In this document: piece after piece, positions 45,299 to 50,195 of the stretch
Layout of the letters: every line of letters starts with the position of its first letter
How positions within the stretch are numbered: the stretch's first letter is position 1
Origin: Comamonadaceae bacterium
GTDB taxonomy: Bacteria; Pseudomonadota; Gammaproteobacteria; Burkholderiales; Burkholderiaceae_C
Reading direction: 5' to 3'
Length of the DNA: 64,000 bases
Assembly: GCA_947454955.1 (NCBI GenBank)
Contig: CANGLW010000008.1
Span: 1 to 64,000, forward strand
Made by a program: the position numbers and the translations under genes
Notes under the pieces: generated by a model
What the model saw: the letters and a program-made list of their open reading frames with translations, nothing else
Database searches by the model: none
Told to the model about the DNA's origin: nothing

Positions 45299-45880
45299 TT
45301 ACCGCGAGAACTTCAGCACCGTGGTGCTGGCGAACAAGTTAGGCGCCAAGGTCACGCGCTGGCCACGGTGCACACCAAAACTCTCCAGCACCTGCAGGCC
45401 GTTGCGCTGCGCCAAATCCAGCAGGTCCACATGGGTGCCCACACGGATGTTGGGTGTGTCGTACCACTGGTAGGGCAGGCGTTTGGTCACCGGCATGCGG
45501 CCGAGCAACACGCTCAAGCGGTTGGGCCAATGCGCAAAGTTAGGAAACGCCACAATGCCCACACGCCCCACACGCGCGGTTTCGCGCAGCACCACCTCGG
45601 CGTTGCGCAGGTGTTGCAGGGTGTCGCTTTGCAGCACCACGTCAAAACTTTGGTCTTCGAACATGTCCAGCCCCTCGTCGAGGTTGAGCTGAATCACATT
45701 CACACCGCGCTGCACACAGGCTAGCACATTGGCATCATCAAGCTCCACACCGTAACCGGTGCAGCCGCGGGTGGCTTGCAGGTGCGCGAGCATGGCGCCG
45801 TTGCCGCAACCCAAATCCAAGACGCGCGAGCCCGGTGGCACCAACTGCGCCAGCACTTTCATGGTGAGGTCATCGGTCAT
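45299..45880 (-). CDS. metW: Methionine biosynthesis protein MetW
   Basis: This 193-residue methyltransferase-fold protein is co-expressed with metX and in some species is needed for full MetX activity. It has the SAM-like motif [33 protein letters not shown], and [20 protein letters not shown]. It overlaps the metX stop by 4 bp. Both lie behind the SAM-II-like riboswitch. Confidence 0.95.
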
Positions 45881-47022
45881 AAGCCCACCCCAATTTTGCT
45901 CTCAAAATAAGAGCGCACCAGCGCCAAATAGCGGGGGTCGTCCAGCAAAAAGGCATCATGGCCGTGCGGCGCGTCAATCTCGGCGTAGCTCACCTCGCGG
46001 CGGTTGTCCACCAGGGCTTTGACGATCTCGCGGCTGCGCGCGGGGCTGAAGCGCCAGTCGGTGGTGAAGCTCACCAGCAAAAACTTGGACTGGGTGTGCG
46101 CCAACGCGCGGGTGAGGTTGCCACCATGCGCGCGGGCCGGGTCGAAATAATCCAGCGCGCGGGTGATGAGCAAATAGGTGTTGGCGTCAAAGTACTCGCT
46201 GAACTTGTCGCCCTGGTAGCGCAGGTAGCTCTCGATCTCAAATTCCACATCTTGTGTGGAAAATTTGTAGTCGCGCTCGGCCTGGGTGGAGGTGACCGCA
46301 TCGCGCAGCTTGCGACCAAACTTGTCATTCATCACATCATCACTGAGGTAGGTGATGTGGCCGATCATGCGGGCTATGCGCAGACCGCGCTTGGGCACCA
46401 CGCCGTGCGCGTAAAAGTGGCCGTTGTGAAAGTCGGGGTCGGTCACGATGGCGCGGCGCGCCACCTCGTTAAACGCGATGTTCTCGGCGTTCAAGTTGGG
46501 CGCACTGGCCACCACCACCGCGTGCTTGACGCGCTGCGGGTATTGCAGCGTCCAACTCAAGGTTTGCATGCCGCCCAAGCTGCCGCCCATCACCGCGGCC
46601 AGGGTGTCGATGCCTAAAGCATCGAGCAAACGCGCTTGCGCGTTGACCCAGTCTTCCACCGTGACCACCGGGAAATCGGCGCCATAGACCTGGCCGGTGT
46701 CGGGGTGGGTGTGCATGGGGCCGGTCGAGCCAAAGCACGAGCCCAGGTTGTTCACCCCAATCACGAAAAATTTGTTGGTGTCCACCGGCTTGCCCGGGCC
46801 AATCATGTTGTCCCACCAGCCTTCGCTTTTGGGTTGGCCCTCGTACACGCCAGCCACATGGTGCGAGGCGTTGAGGGCGTGGCAAATCAGCACTGCGTTG
46901 GACTTGGCTGCGTTGAGGGTGCCGTAGGTCTCGTAGCTCAGGTGGTAGTCGCGGATCGACGCACCGCTTTGCAGGGGCAAAGCAGCGTCAAAGTGCATCG
47001 ACTGTGGGTGAGCGATCAACAT
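45877..47022 (-). CDS. metX: Homoserine O-acetyltransferase/O-succinyltransferase MetX
   Basis: The 381-residue alpha/beta-hydrolase-fold acyltransferase activates homoserine at the start of methionine synthesis. It has [28 protein letters not shown], nucleophile Ser in [14 protein letters not shown], and [10 protein letters not shown] (catalytic His). Whether acetyl- or succinyl-CoA is used cannot be told. ATG 47022 ([15 protein letters not shown]) has GGAG upstream. The in-frame extension to 47364 passes through a riboswitch and terminator and is not coding. Confidence 0.95.
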
Positions 47023-47040
47023 CGCGGCAAGCAACTCCAA

Positions 47041-47077
47041 AAAACAAAAACCCGGCTCAGCAAAAGCAGGGCCGGGT
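47041..47077 (-). terminator. Intrinsic terminator in the metX leader
   Basis: On the minus strand, CCCGGC (47071-47076) and GCCGGG (47051-47056) enclose a loop, followed by TTTTTGTTTT. It sits between the aptamer and the metX start and should be an attenuator. Confidence 0.8.
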
Positions 47078-47089
47078 ATCGCAGGGAGA

Positions 47090-47180
47090 CACTTGCCGTC
47101 TTTAGCTGAACTTCGAGGCATGCAAGCCCGCAAAGGCTCGACCCCGGCGCCCGCAATCTGGTTCAAATCGGCGCATGCCC
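47090..47180 (-). ncRNA. SAM-II-like riboswitch (SAM alpha aptamer) of metX
   Basis: Reading the minus strand from 47180: GCGCC-GATTTGAACC-AGATTGC-GGGCGC closes helix P1 (47170-47174 with 47147-47151). The downstream AGCTAAAGACGG (47095-47107) is the conserved 3' pseudoknot strand of SAM-II RNAs that control metX/metA. The arrangement GATTT-AACC-ATTGC and GCTAAA match the class well. The stretch between GGCGC and GCTAAA carries an extra GC-rich hairpin. SAM binding should block metX-metW expression through the adjacent terminator. A possible -10 TATACT is at 47183-47188. Confidence 0.78.
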
Positions 47181-47295
47181 TGAGTATAAAACGAAGTGCC
47201 CCAGTGGCTTGAGGCTTTTTAGCGTCGCCCACAAACAGTGCGCAAACCCTCAGCACCAGCGTCAGGCCGCCCCAAAAAGCGGCAGCCCATAGAAT

Positions 47296-48851: not shown

Positions 48852-49274
48852 ATGGGCAACAAACTTTACGTGGGCAACCTGCCCTACGCATTCCGCGACA
48901 ACGACCTGCAACAGGCATTCAGCCAGTACGGCACGGTTTCCAGCGCCAAAGTCATGATGGAACGTGACACCGGCCGTTCCAAAGGCTTCGGCTTTGTGGA
49001 AATGGGCGACGACGCACAAGCACAAGCAGCGATTGCCGGCATGAATGGCCAGCAATTCGGCGGCCGTGGCCTGGTGGTCAACGAAGCCCGTCCCATGGAA
49101 CCCCGTCCTCCCCGCACCGGCGGCTACGGCGGCGGTGGTGGTGGCTACGGTGGTGGTGGCGGCGGCGGTTACGGCGGTGGCCGTGAAGGCGGCGGTGGCG
49201 GCTACGGTGGTGGCGGTGGCCGTCGCGAAGGCGGCGGTGGTGGCTACGGCGGCGGTGGCCGTGGTGGTTACTGA
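48852..49274 (+). CDS. Glycine-rich RNA-binding protein with one RRM domain (1)
   Basis: The protein has 140 residues. The RRM carries RNP2 KLYVGNLPYAF and RNP1 SKGFGFVEM; the last 45 residues are Gly/Tyr/Arg repeats (GGYGGGGGG type), an RGG-like tail. Such bacterial RNPs are like cyanobacterial Rbp and plant glycine-rich cold-induced proteins and probably bind mRNA as cold or stress chaperones (inference). It is a close paralogue of the next gene. Confidence 0.93.
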   Translation: MGNKLYVGNLPYAFRDNDLQQAFSQYGTVSSAKVMMERDTGRSKGFGFVEMGDDAQAQAAIAGMNGQQFGGRGLVVNEARPMEPRPPRTGGYGGGGGGYGGGGGGGYGGGREGGGGGYGGGGGRREGGGGGYGGGGRGGY

Positions 49275-49574: not shown

Positions 49575-50195
49575 ATGGGCAACAAACTCTACGTAGGCAA
49601 TTTGCCTTACACGGTGCGTGACAACGACCTGCAGCAGGCGTTCAGCCAGTTCGGTACGGTCAGCAGCGCCAAGGTGATGATGGAACGCGACACCGGCCGC
49701 TCTAAAGGCTTTGGCTTTGTGGAAATGGGCGATGATGCCCAAGCCCAAGCCGCCATTACCGGCATGCACGGCCAGGACCTCAATGGCCGCAACCTGGTGG
49801 TCAACGAAGCCCGCCCCATGGAGCCCCGCCCACCGCGCACCGGTGGGTACGGTGGTGGTGGCGGCGGCTATGGCGGGGGAGGCGGTTATGGTGGCGGGCG
49901 TCGTGAAGGCGGCGGCGGTTACGGTGGGGGGGGTGGAGGTGGCTACGGCGGTGGCGGCGGTTATGCGGGCCAACGCGAAGGTGGTTACGCCAGCCCACGT
50001 GATGGCGGCGGTGGCTATGGTGGTGGCGAGCGTCAAGACCGCGGTTATGGTGACCGTGGTGACCGCGGAGATCGTGGCGACAGAGGCGATCGAGGGGACC
50101 GCCAGGACCGCAGCTATGGCGACGGTCAGGACGGTGGTTTTCGCAGCCCCTACGGCAACCCGCGCGGCGGCGGGGGTGGACGTCGCGGTTACTGA
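49575..50195 (+). CDS. Glycine-rich RNA-binding protein with one RRM domain (2)
   Basis: The protein has 206 residues. Its RRM (KLYVGNLPYTVRDNDLQQAF; SKGFGFVEMGDDAQAQAAI) is nearly identical to that of the previous gene. The tail is much longer: Gly/Tyr repeats, then an Arg/Asp run (DRGDRGDRGDRGDRGDR type, about 160-180), then GGGRRGY. Charged RGD/RGG tails may promote RNA binding and condensation. It probably arose by tandem duplication including the leader, then tail expansion. Confidence 0.93.
   Translation: MGNKLYVGNLPYTVRDNDLQQAFSQFGTVSSAKVMMERDTGRSKGFGFVEMGDDAQAQAAITGMHGQDLNGRNLVVNEARPMEPRPPRTGGYGGGGGGYGGGGGYGGGRREGGGGYGGGGGGGYGGGGGYAGQREGGYASPRDGGGGYGGGERQDRGYGDRGDRGDRGDRGDRGDRQDRSYGDGQDGGFRSPYGNPRGGGGGRRGY

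Follow-up and report, generated by a model that had tools for sequence, protein, structure and literature searches.

Riboswitches of the SAM-II class (Rfam SAM_alpha, RF00521) were originally described as RNAs with one stem and one pseudoknot and with putative terminators in many members, and the passages of that description concerned with distribution give a few occurrences outside the alpha-proteobacteria, such as that of Bordetella bronchiseptica in a figure legend (Corbino et al. 2005, PMC1273637). Terminator-coupled SAM-II RNAs in beta-proteobacteria were already noted in 2007, their mechanism being described in the relevant part of that year's survey as not yet experimentally established (PMC2258182). 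For an alpha-proteobacterial member, the SAM-II riboswitch of Sinorhizobium meliloti metZ, the section of the source that treats it predicts that SAM binding favours a Rho-independent terminator (PMC9373788). A beta-proteobacterial element named metXZ was described separately, upstream of metXW and in 10 of the 11 Comamonadaceae genomes of Table 1, with a possible pseudoknot formed by regions 1/4 and 2/6 and a terminator downstream; the passages on this element do not term it SAM-II, propose an antiterminator other than ours and give Rhizobiales and Rhodobacterales as the only orders with SAM_alpha (Leyn et al. 2014, PMC4239095). A further variant, SAM-II long loops (RF01726), is tabulated as occurring in Bacteroidetes and in marine samples (Weinberg et al. 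2010, PMC2864571).

Here, we analyse the leader of metX in a 64,000-nt stretch of Comamonadaceae DNA (the window). Like the SAM-II RNAs of the original description, as far as its passages on structure and genomic context go, this leader has a single stem P1, pseudoknot strands and the motifs GATTTG, TTGC and GCTAAA, and it lies upstream of a methionine gene with a terminator downstream, as in many members (PMC1273637). It differs from them in carrying a hairpin (P3) in L3, a weak and variable P2a, and a score far under the Rfam cut-off. We propose, with a probability of roughly 80%, that it is a SAM-II-class riboswitch that shuts off metXW by transcription termination when S-adenosylmethionine (SAM) is plentiful. 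Like the metXZ element, it is a metXW leader with pseudoknot strands and then a terminator, and from this comparison by description with the published passages (PMC4239095) we infer that the two are the same element. The likeness to RF01726, compared by name and table entry (PMC2864571), is that of a SAM-II variant with a longer loop. A search of the open-licence PMC literature found no paper joining metXZ to SAM-II or describing P3, which leaves absence in print unproven; what appears new is a likely antitermination mechanism, in which the terminator can pair with the aptamer's 3′ pseudoknot strand.

Architecture of the metX leader

The SAM-II-type core (P1, GATTTG, ATTGC and GCTAAAG), the inserted hairpin and an intrinsic terminator together occupy 47174–47039 of the minus strand. 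Read 5′ to 3′ from 47174 to 47020 on that strand, the order is P1 GCGCC, GATTTG, AACCAGATTGC, G and P1′ GGCGC, followed by a 33-nt hairpin, AAGTTCA, GCTAAAGACGG, a spacer, the terminator (ACCCGGC...GCCGGGT, TTTTTGTTTTTT) and the ATG of metX. The features are as follows.

47183..47188, minus strand: candidate −10 element TATACT, 8 nt 5′ of P1, with no good −35
47170..47174, minus strand: P1 5′ strand GCGCC, read in sequence
47164..47169, minus strand: L1 motif GATTTG, invariant in alignments A1 and A2
47153..47157, minus strand: P2 5′ strand ATTGC; TTGC invariant in A1 and A2, preceding base A or C
47147..47151, minus strand: P1 3′ strand GGCGC, read in sequence
47114..47146, minus strand: P3, inserted hairpin adjoining P1, with outer 6 bp, a 3-nt bulge, inner 7 bp and a 4-nt loop
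47107..47113, minus strand: L3 tail AAGTTCA, 7 nt, the last 5 nt shared with the antiterminator strand
47101..47106, minus strand: P2 3′ strand GCTAAA (GCTAAAG, 47106–47100), doubling as the predicted antiterminator strand
47055..47066, minus strand: CTTTTGCTGAGC within the terminator, partner of aptamer GTTCAGC(T)AAAG (antiterminator) in the computed fold of the transcript cut at 47053
47039..47077, minus strand: intrinsic terminator, stem ACCCGGC/GCCGGGT within 47077–47050, T-run 47050–47039
45877..47022, minus strand: metX, homoserine O-acyltransferase of the MetX_succinyl type (NCBIfam MetX_succinyl, 654.6 bits, cut-off 560)
45299..45880, minus strand: metW, overlapping the end of metX (TIGR02081, 232.4 bits, cut-off 189.5)

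These elements agree with the original prediction, made from the window alone: its P1 GCGCC/GGCGC, GATTTGAACC (which begins at 47169 on the minus strand, inside P1), ATTGC and GCTAAAG were each found on the minus strand, its extra hairpin between P1 and GCTAAA lies at 47146–47114, its strong terminator between aptamer and gene at 47077–47039, and metX (45877..47022) and then metW follow the leader.

The program-made list of open reading frames runs metX through the leader to 47364; conservation of the leader favours a start at 47022. Divergent and upstream lies an ammonium-transporter-like gene (307.8 bits, below the TIGR00836 cut-off of 343.3). TATACT also stands 5′ of P1 in several relatives, for example L008, L040, L055 and L058, and a sigma-70 scan at the leader returned no full promoter. 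Farther along the window, 48852–49274 and 49575–50195 of the plus strand are neighbouring genes with near-identical N-terminal halves and glycine-rich tails, which we take to encode short RNA-binding-type proteins.

Conservation and class assignment

The pattern GATTTG..TTGC..GCTAAA occurs once in the 64 kb and finds a match in 2 of 100 dinucleotide shuffles; a tighter core pattern occurs once in the entire 2.78-Mb genome and not at all in the reversed control. Conservation argues against chance better than such shuffle counts do. Among the 80 metX loci examined, the best 80 of 583 relatives in the genome collection, 71 carry the core upstream of metX. Two of the other nine are contig ends (L046 and L078), and seven (L024, L026, L033, L044, L061, L069 and L073) have no core in the stretch examined; these core-less loci need four changes in the MetX tree, so that the riboswitch was lost repeatedly or metX moved behind another promoter. 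L1 reads AATTTG or GATTTC in 8 of the 71 leaders and GAATTTG in one. A model built from 21 distinct long (hairpin-bearing) forms, the window's included (R2), matches 262 of 299 genomes of the GTDB family at E ≤ 1 × 10−4. A pattern search within the genus found 7 of 26 genomes, missing the window's own under a gap limit of 45 where the window needs 46.

At gathering thresholds, the window has no match to any Rfam family, and no SAM-II was found in the 20 relatives scanned (20 of the 80 metX loci, of short and long form). The original prediction had counted a SAM_alpha covariance score below threshold, combined with the absence of a SAM-dependent change, against itself; the first of the two was found, SAM_alpha giving 13.3 bits against a cut-off of 36 and aligning only positions 11–41 of 79, which places the leader below the score for the curated RF00521 family as it stands. 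The same model returned no matches in the window's own genome. We attribute the low score in part to the inserted hairpin, since all 23 hairpin-free Burkholderiales leaders used here exceed the cut-off. The insert does not explain the score fully, because short Comamonadaceae forms without it also fall under the cut-off where tested (L005, L022, L029, L041, L051, L068 and L080). SAM_alpha exceeds its cut-off in 26 of 150 Burkholderiales genomes and matches 80 of the 150 at E ≤ 0.05, compared with 2 of 14 control genomes at E ≤ 0.05 and none over the cut-off; SAM-II is thus common in Burkholderiales, contrary to the earlier remark that the class is best known outside the betaproteobacteria.

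The 23 Burkholderiales leaders over the cut-off share near-identical P1, GATTTG, TTGCGGGCGC and GCTAAAG, with an L3 of 12–15 nt. From these 23, leaving out the window and all of L001–L080, we built a model (R1) and searched with it the window and 95 of 133 loci, including 15 of the 20 loci from outside the window's class (L088–L107). R1 scores the window at 28.5 bits (a rough E value of 1.1 × 10−5 in 564 kb), aligning it over model positions 1–30 of 56 only, stopping at the insert, with nothing beyond P1. It matches 71 of 71 core-bearing metX loci, 20 long forms among them (7 of the 20 over the full model), and, over the full model, all 15 SAM_alpha matches tested from classes other than the window's; five weak extra matches, of at most 14 bits, are taken as noise. 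Because R1 links the window with SAM_alpha matches of other classes, it supports homology to accepted members, whose P1 in those other classes is of the GTGG/CCAC type rather than GCGCC/GGCGC.

The ligand sites named in the relevant part of a structural source, U10, U11, A20, U21, U22, U46, A47 and A49 (PMC11508383), have counterparts, in our mapping, in GAUUU, AUUGC and GCUAAA, each of which the window contains. GATTTG, TTGC and GCTAAA are invariant in the 21 distinct long forms of A2, where the base preceding TTGC is A, or C in six; the invariance of the P2 core means that covariation cannot support P2, and the two pairs of P2a form in only 59.5% of A2 cells. P1 is 100% paired in all 21 and co-changes in relatives (GTGCC/GGCAC in L147 and L148; GCGCT/AGCGC in L047), with a G-U pair in L127 (GCGCT/GGCGC). 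By its features, the window leader would thus be a P3-bearing structural variant of the SAM-II class beyond Rfam's present model. SAM-II is also the best-supported reading of the sequence, as originally predicted, given the near-identical core in 23 leaders over the cut-off and the R1 match to the window, and the leader is predicted to bind SAM.

Other Rfam candidates were set aside. The highest score for SAM-II long loops (RF01726) among 26 genomes of the genus was 20.5 bits against a cut-off of 44, with no match in the window's own genome at E ≤ 1. Sub-threshold matches to rnk_pseudo (25.5 bits, cut-off 55) and SorY (13.6 bits, cut-off 111) fall on the terminator, and Chlorobi-1, Bp2_287 and WLE3 lie far under their cut-offs at the leader, at 11.8–12.7 bits.

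Several related RNAs were seen alongside. One Burkholderiales locus carries two tandem SAM-II-like cores (L127, 1516 and 1679), the second with its own possible hairpin (GGTGGTTCAGCCGCC) in L3. AATTTG in place of GATTTG accompanies GCTAAAC in place of GCTAAAG in six of six leaders (L008, L058, L062, L067, L072 and L074), GCTAAAC occurring in 3 of the other 65 core-bearing metX leaders, a co-occurrence that hints at a contact between those positions. Of the 20 scanned loci, five (L010, L017, L022, L029 and L068) have a yybP-ykoY manganese riboswitch (RF00080) some 0.7–1.7 kb upstream of metX. The window's own genome holds two SAH riboswitches over the Rfam cut-off (L134 and L135, on contigs C13 and C4), which raises the possibility of distinct RNA sensors for SAH and SAM.

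The inserted hairpin P3

L3 crosses P1 in the SAM-II pseudoknot. Among the 71 metX leaders it measures 12–16 nt in 51 and 25–40 nt in 20, the window having 40. All 34 distinct long L3s fold into a hairpin that begins 0 nt (30) or 1 nt (4) after P1 and ends 6–10 nt before GCTAAA, at exactly 7 nt in 24 of the 34. The criterion behind this count was fixed after the sequences had been inspected and also admits 609 of 6,800 shuffles. The search that supplied 15 of the 34 used a P3-bearing model, which biases those 15 but not the remaining 19, among them the window's. Twenty extra leaders, hand-picked from P3-model matches mostly by length, lean toward P3, with L144 and L155 lacking the hairpin and L146 left unparsed by the pattern.

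P3 is under pairing constraint. Across 11 distinct arm sets (the arms of L010 placed by hand and L030 left out), 62 of 66 pairs are kept, compared with a permuted mean of 51.6 and with 0 of 10,000 permutations as high. In A2, 90.5% of the P3 cells are paired, and 18 cells are changed on both sides, against 5.4 in shuffles over all helices (0 of 500 as high), all 18 of them falling in P3. Two-sided changes affect 5 of 6 P3 pairs, a number not unusual alone, since 80 of 500 shuffles reach five over the whole structure. Downstream of P3, the tail is similar to the 3′ half of a short L3, suggesting that P3 is stacked on P1 and takes the place of the 5′ half of the loop.

The long form needs six changes on the MetX tree, at least two of them forced by starred branches; this is a quick tree in which 30 of the 78 inner branches are open. 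Either P3 has undergone repeated gain or loss, or the tree is too weak. We tentatively raise the possibility, which we hold to be rather doubtful, that beta-proteobacterial SAM-II aptamers repeatedly gained P3 as a functional module, stacked on P1 and reducing L3 to a short strand of almost constant length, in which the shorter L3 would set the speed of P2 closure, the aptamer racing an antiterminator that uses the same strand.

A predicted termination switch

Of the 71 core-bearing metX leaders, 64 have a T-run preceded by a hairpin of −12 kcal/mol or better, and some of the seven misses (L004 and L054) look like detector limits; the terminator of L064 looks degenerate by eye. The window terminator is plain by eye and in computed folds; a simple scan for loops of 3–8 nt did not report it, because its loop, if inner pairs are disregarded, spans 14 nt. 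Short forms mostly have TTTAGC or TTTGGC in the terminator loop, complementary to GCTAAA, whereas the nearer relatives of the window have AGCTGA(A) or a similar sequence there, complementary to (T)TCAGCT.

This match between aptamer and terminator was scored as a duplex of the aptamer strand with the terminator hairpin, the control being dinucleotide shuffles of the hairpin's central part (nearly the whole hairpin in the window). The window duplex reaches −14.0 kcal/mol against a shuffled mean of −7.7, with 0 of 100 shuffles as low. For the 46 short forms the mean energy is −9.8 kcal/mol, compared with −5.9 for shuffles (31 of the 46 individually at or below 0.05); the corresponding means are −10.2 and −6.6 for 18 long forms (7 of 18) and −10.6 and −7.5 for six long forms of the genus (1 of 6). 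Cognate pairs average −10.18 against −8.71 for permuted terminators across 54 distinct leaders, with 0 of 20,000 permutations as low, counts that are not probabilities because the leaders are related; for the window's aptamer strand, 3 of the 54 terminators, its own included, score equal or better. Among the 40 leaders with the loop motif TTT[AG]GC, the nucleotide following GCTAAA pairs with the one preceding the motif in 38, including the three without G after GCTAAA; on the other side, the nucleotide preceding GCTAAA and the one following [AG]GC do not pair in 28 of the 40. An initial complementarity test, whose region ended before the 3′ side of the loop, found no excess of run length in metX leaders. 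The region behind the energies above was widened after the sequences had been inspected; even in it, the longest contiguous run in the window is 5 bp (p = 0.76), short because a U-U mismatch splits the helix.

Folding calculations, whose energies leave out the pseudoknot and SAM, are consistent with a switch. The window transcript cut at 47053, before the 3′ arm of the terminator is complete, has a minimum free energy of −49.5 kcal/mol with the antiterminator formed and P1 and P3 intact, and the full-length leader folds at −51.3 kcal/mol with the terminator formed; the overall stability of the leader is unremarkable (z = −1.06). Six nucleotides short of the complete hairpin, 40 of the 44 distinct short leaders and 20 of the 21 distinct long ones have the core in the antiterminator (P > 0.5). 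Mean antiterminator probabilities at the incomplete hairpin are 0.91 (short) and 0.94 (long), compared with 0.57 and 0.61 for foreign hairpins, and fall to 0.13 and 0.12 once the hairpin is complete; the window gives 0.74 incomplete, 0.43 complete and 0.51 with foreign hairpins.

In 21 more distant leaders, from the order Burkholderiales, cognate and foreign hairpins give the same value (0.54 both), with the core in the antiterminator in 11. In 8 of these 21 the terminator instead complements the P2 5′ strand (at or below 0.05), compared with 0 of 46 short, 0 of 18 long and 0 of 6 genus leaders. In L109, L113, L114 and L121, unlike in Comamonadaceae, the AAGCTGA of the terminator 3′ arm complements TCAGCTT of the P2 5′ strand. 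Terminator wiring may therefore differ between lineages.

In our model, when SAM is low, GUUCAGCUAAAG would pair with CUUUUGCUGAGC while polymerase passes the terminator loop, occupying bases of both terminator arms, so that transcription would continue. With SAM present, GCUAAA would be held in P2 around the ligand, blocking the antiterminator, whereupon the terminator would close and RNA synthesis would stop. P3 is probably stacked on P1, leaving L3 as a 7-nt strand that could still cross P1. Given the complementarity between the terminator and the 3′ pseudoknot strand, SAM would withdraw the very strand that forms the antiterminator; both antitermination and the role of P3 are thus put forward as predictions.

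Two other wirings of the same aptamer were weighed. The GC-rich 3′ region of P1 (GGGCGC) might itself be the antiterminator, pairing with a terminator arm as speculated for the metXZ element, for which the passages of Leyn et al. on mechanism suggest that GC-rich regions 3 and 4 contact one terminator stem (PMC4239095); in the window, GCCGGG spanning the P1/P3 boundary could indeed pair with the terminator CCCGGC. We think this unlikely, because in the truncated window transcript P1 and P3 stay closed and GUUCAGCUAAAG is used in place of the GC-rich region, and the complementarity of the P2 3′ strand exceeds shuffles and permutations. It is highly improbable that the aptamer acts on translation by hiding the ribosome site, with the terminator independent of it. 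That arrangement has a parallel in S. meliloti metA, where, according to the section on that gene, the SAM-II riboswitch acts at the level of translation and the downstream terminator is a separate element (PMC9373788), but in the window the terminator stands between P2 and the start codon, which are 78 nt apart, no ribosome site touches GCTAAAG, and aptamer strand and terminator are matched to each other when cognate and permuted partners are compared.

A further alternative concerns the ligand: the RNA would be of SAM-II ancestry, with P3 having altered or abolished binding, and would now act as a plain attenuator or other sensor. The insert does sit in L3, and Rfam does not accept the window's form. 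The invariance of GATTTG, TTGC and GCTAAA in 21 of 21 distinct long forms speaks against such a change, however, and the pairing constraint on P3 fits a working RNA upstream of metX, making this account improbable. A SAM-responsive terminator remains our preferred reading, and transcription, the level of control originally predicted, appears best supported by a terminator that precedes metX and matches its own aptamer strand.

The analysis joins two separately described things, the beta-proteobacterial metXZ element and the SAM-II class, and identifies a P3-bearing form that the current Rfam model overlooks. It also supplies a concrete, base-by-base switching model for terminator-coupled SAM-II. 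The leaders without a hairpin and those with short and long P3 form a natural series for studying how L3 controls the folding of a very small pseudoknot riboswitch; if the modular reading of P3 is true, the hairpin would be a kinetic tuning device in a minimal pseudoknot riboswitch.
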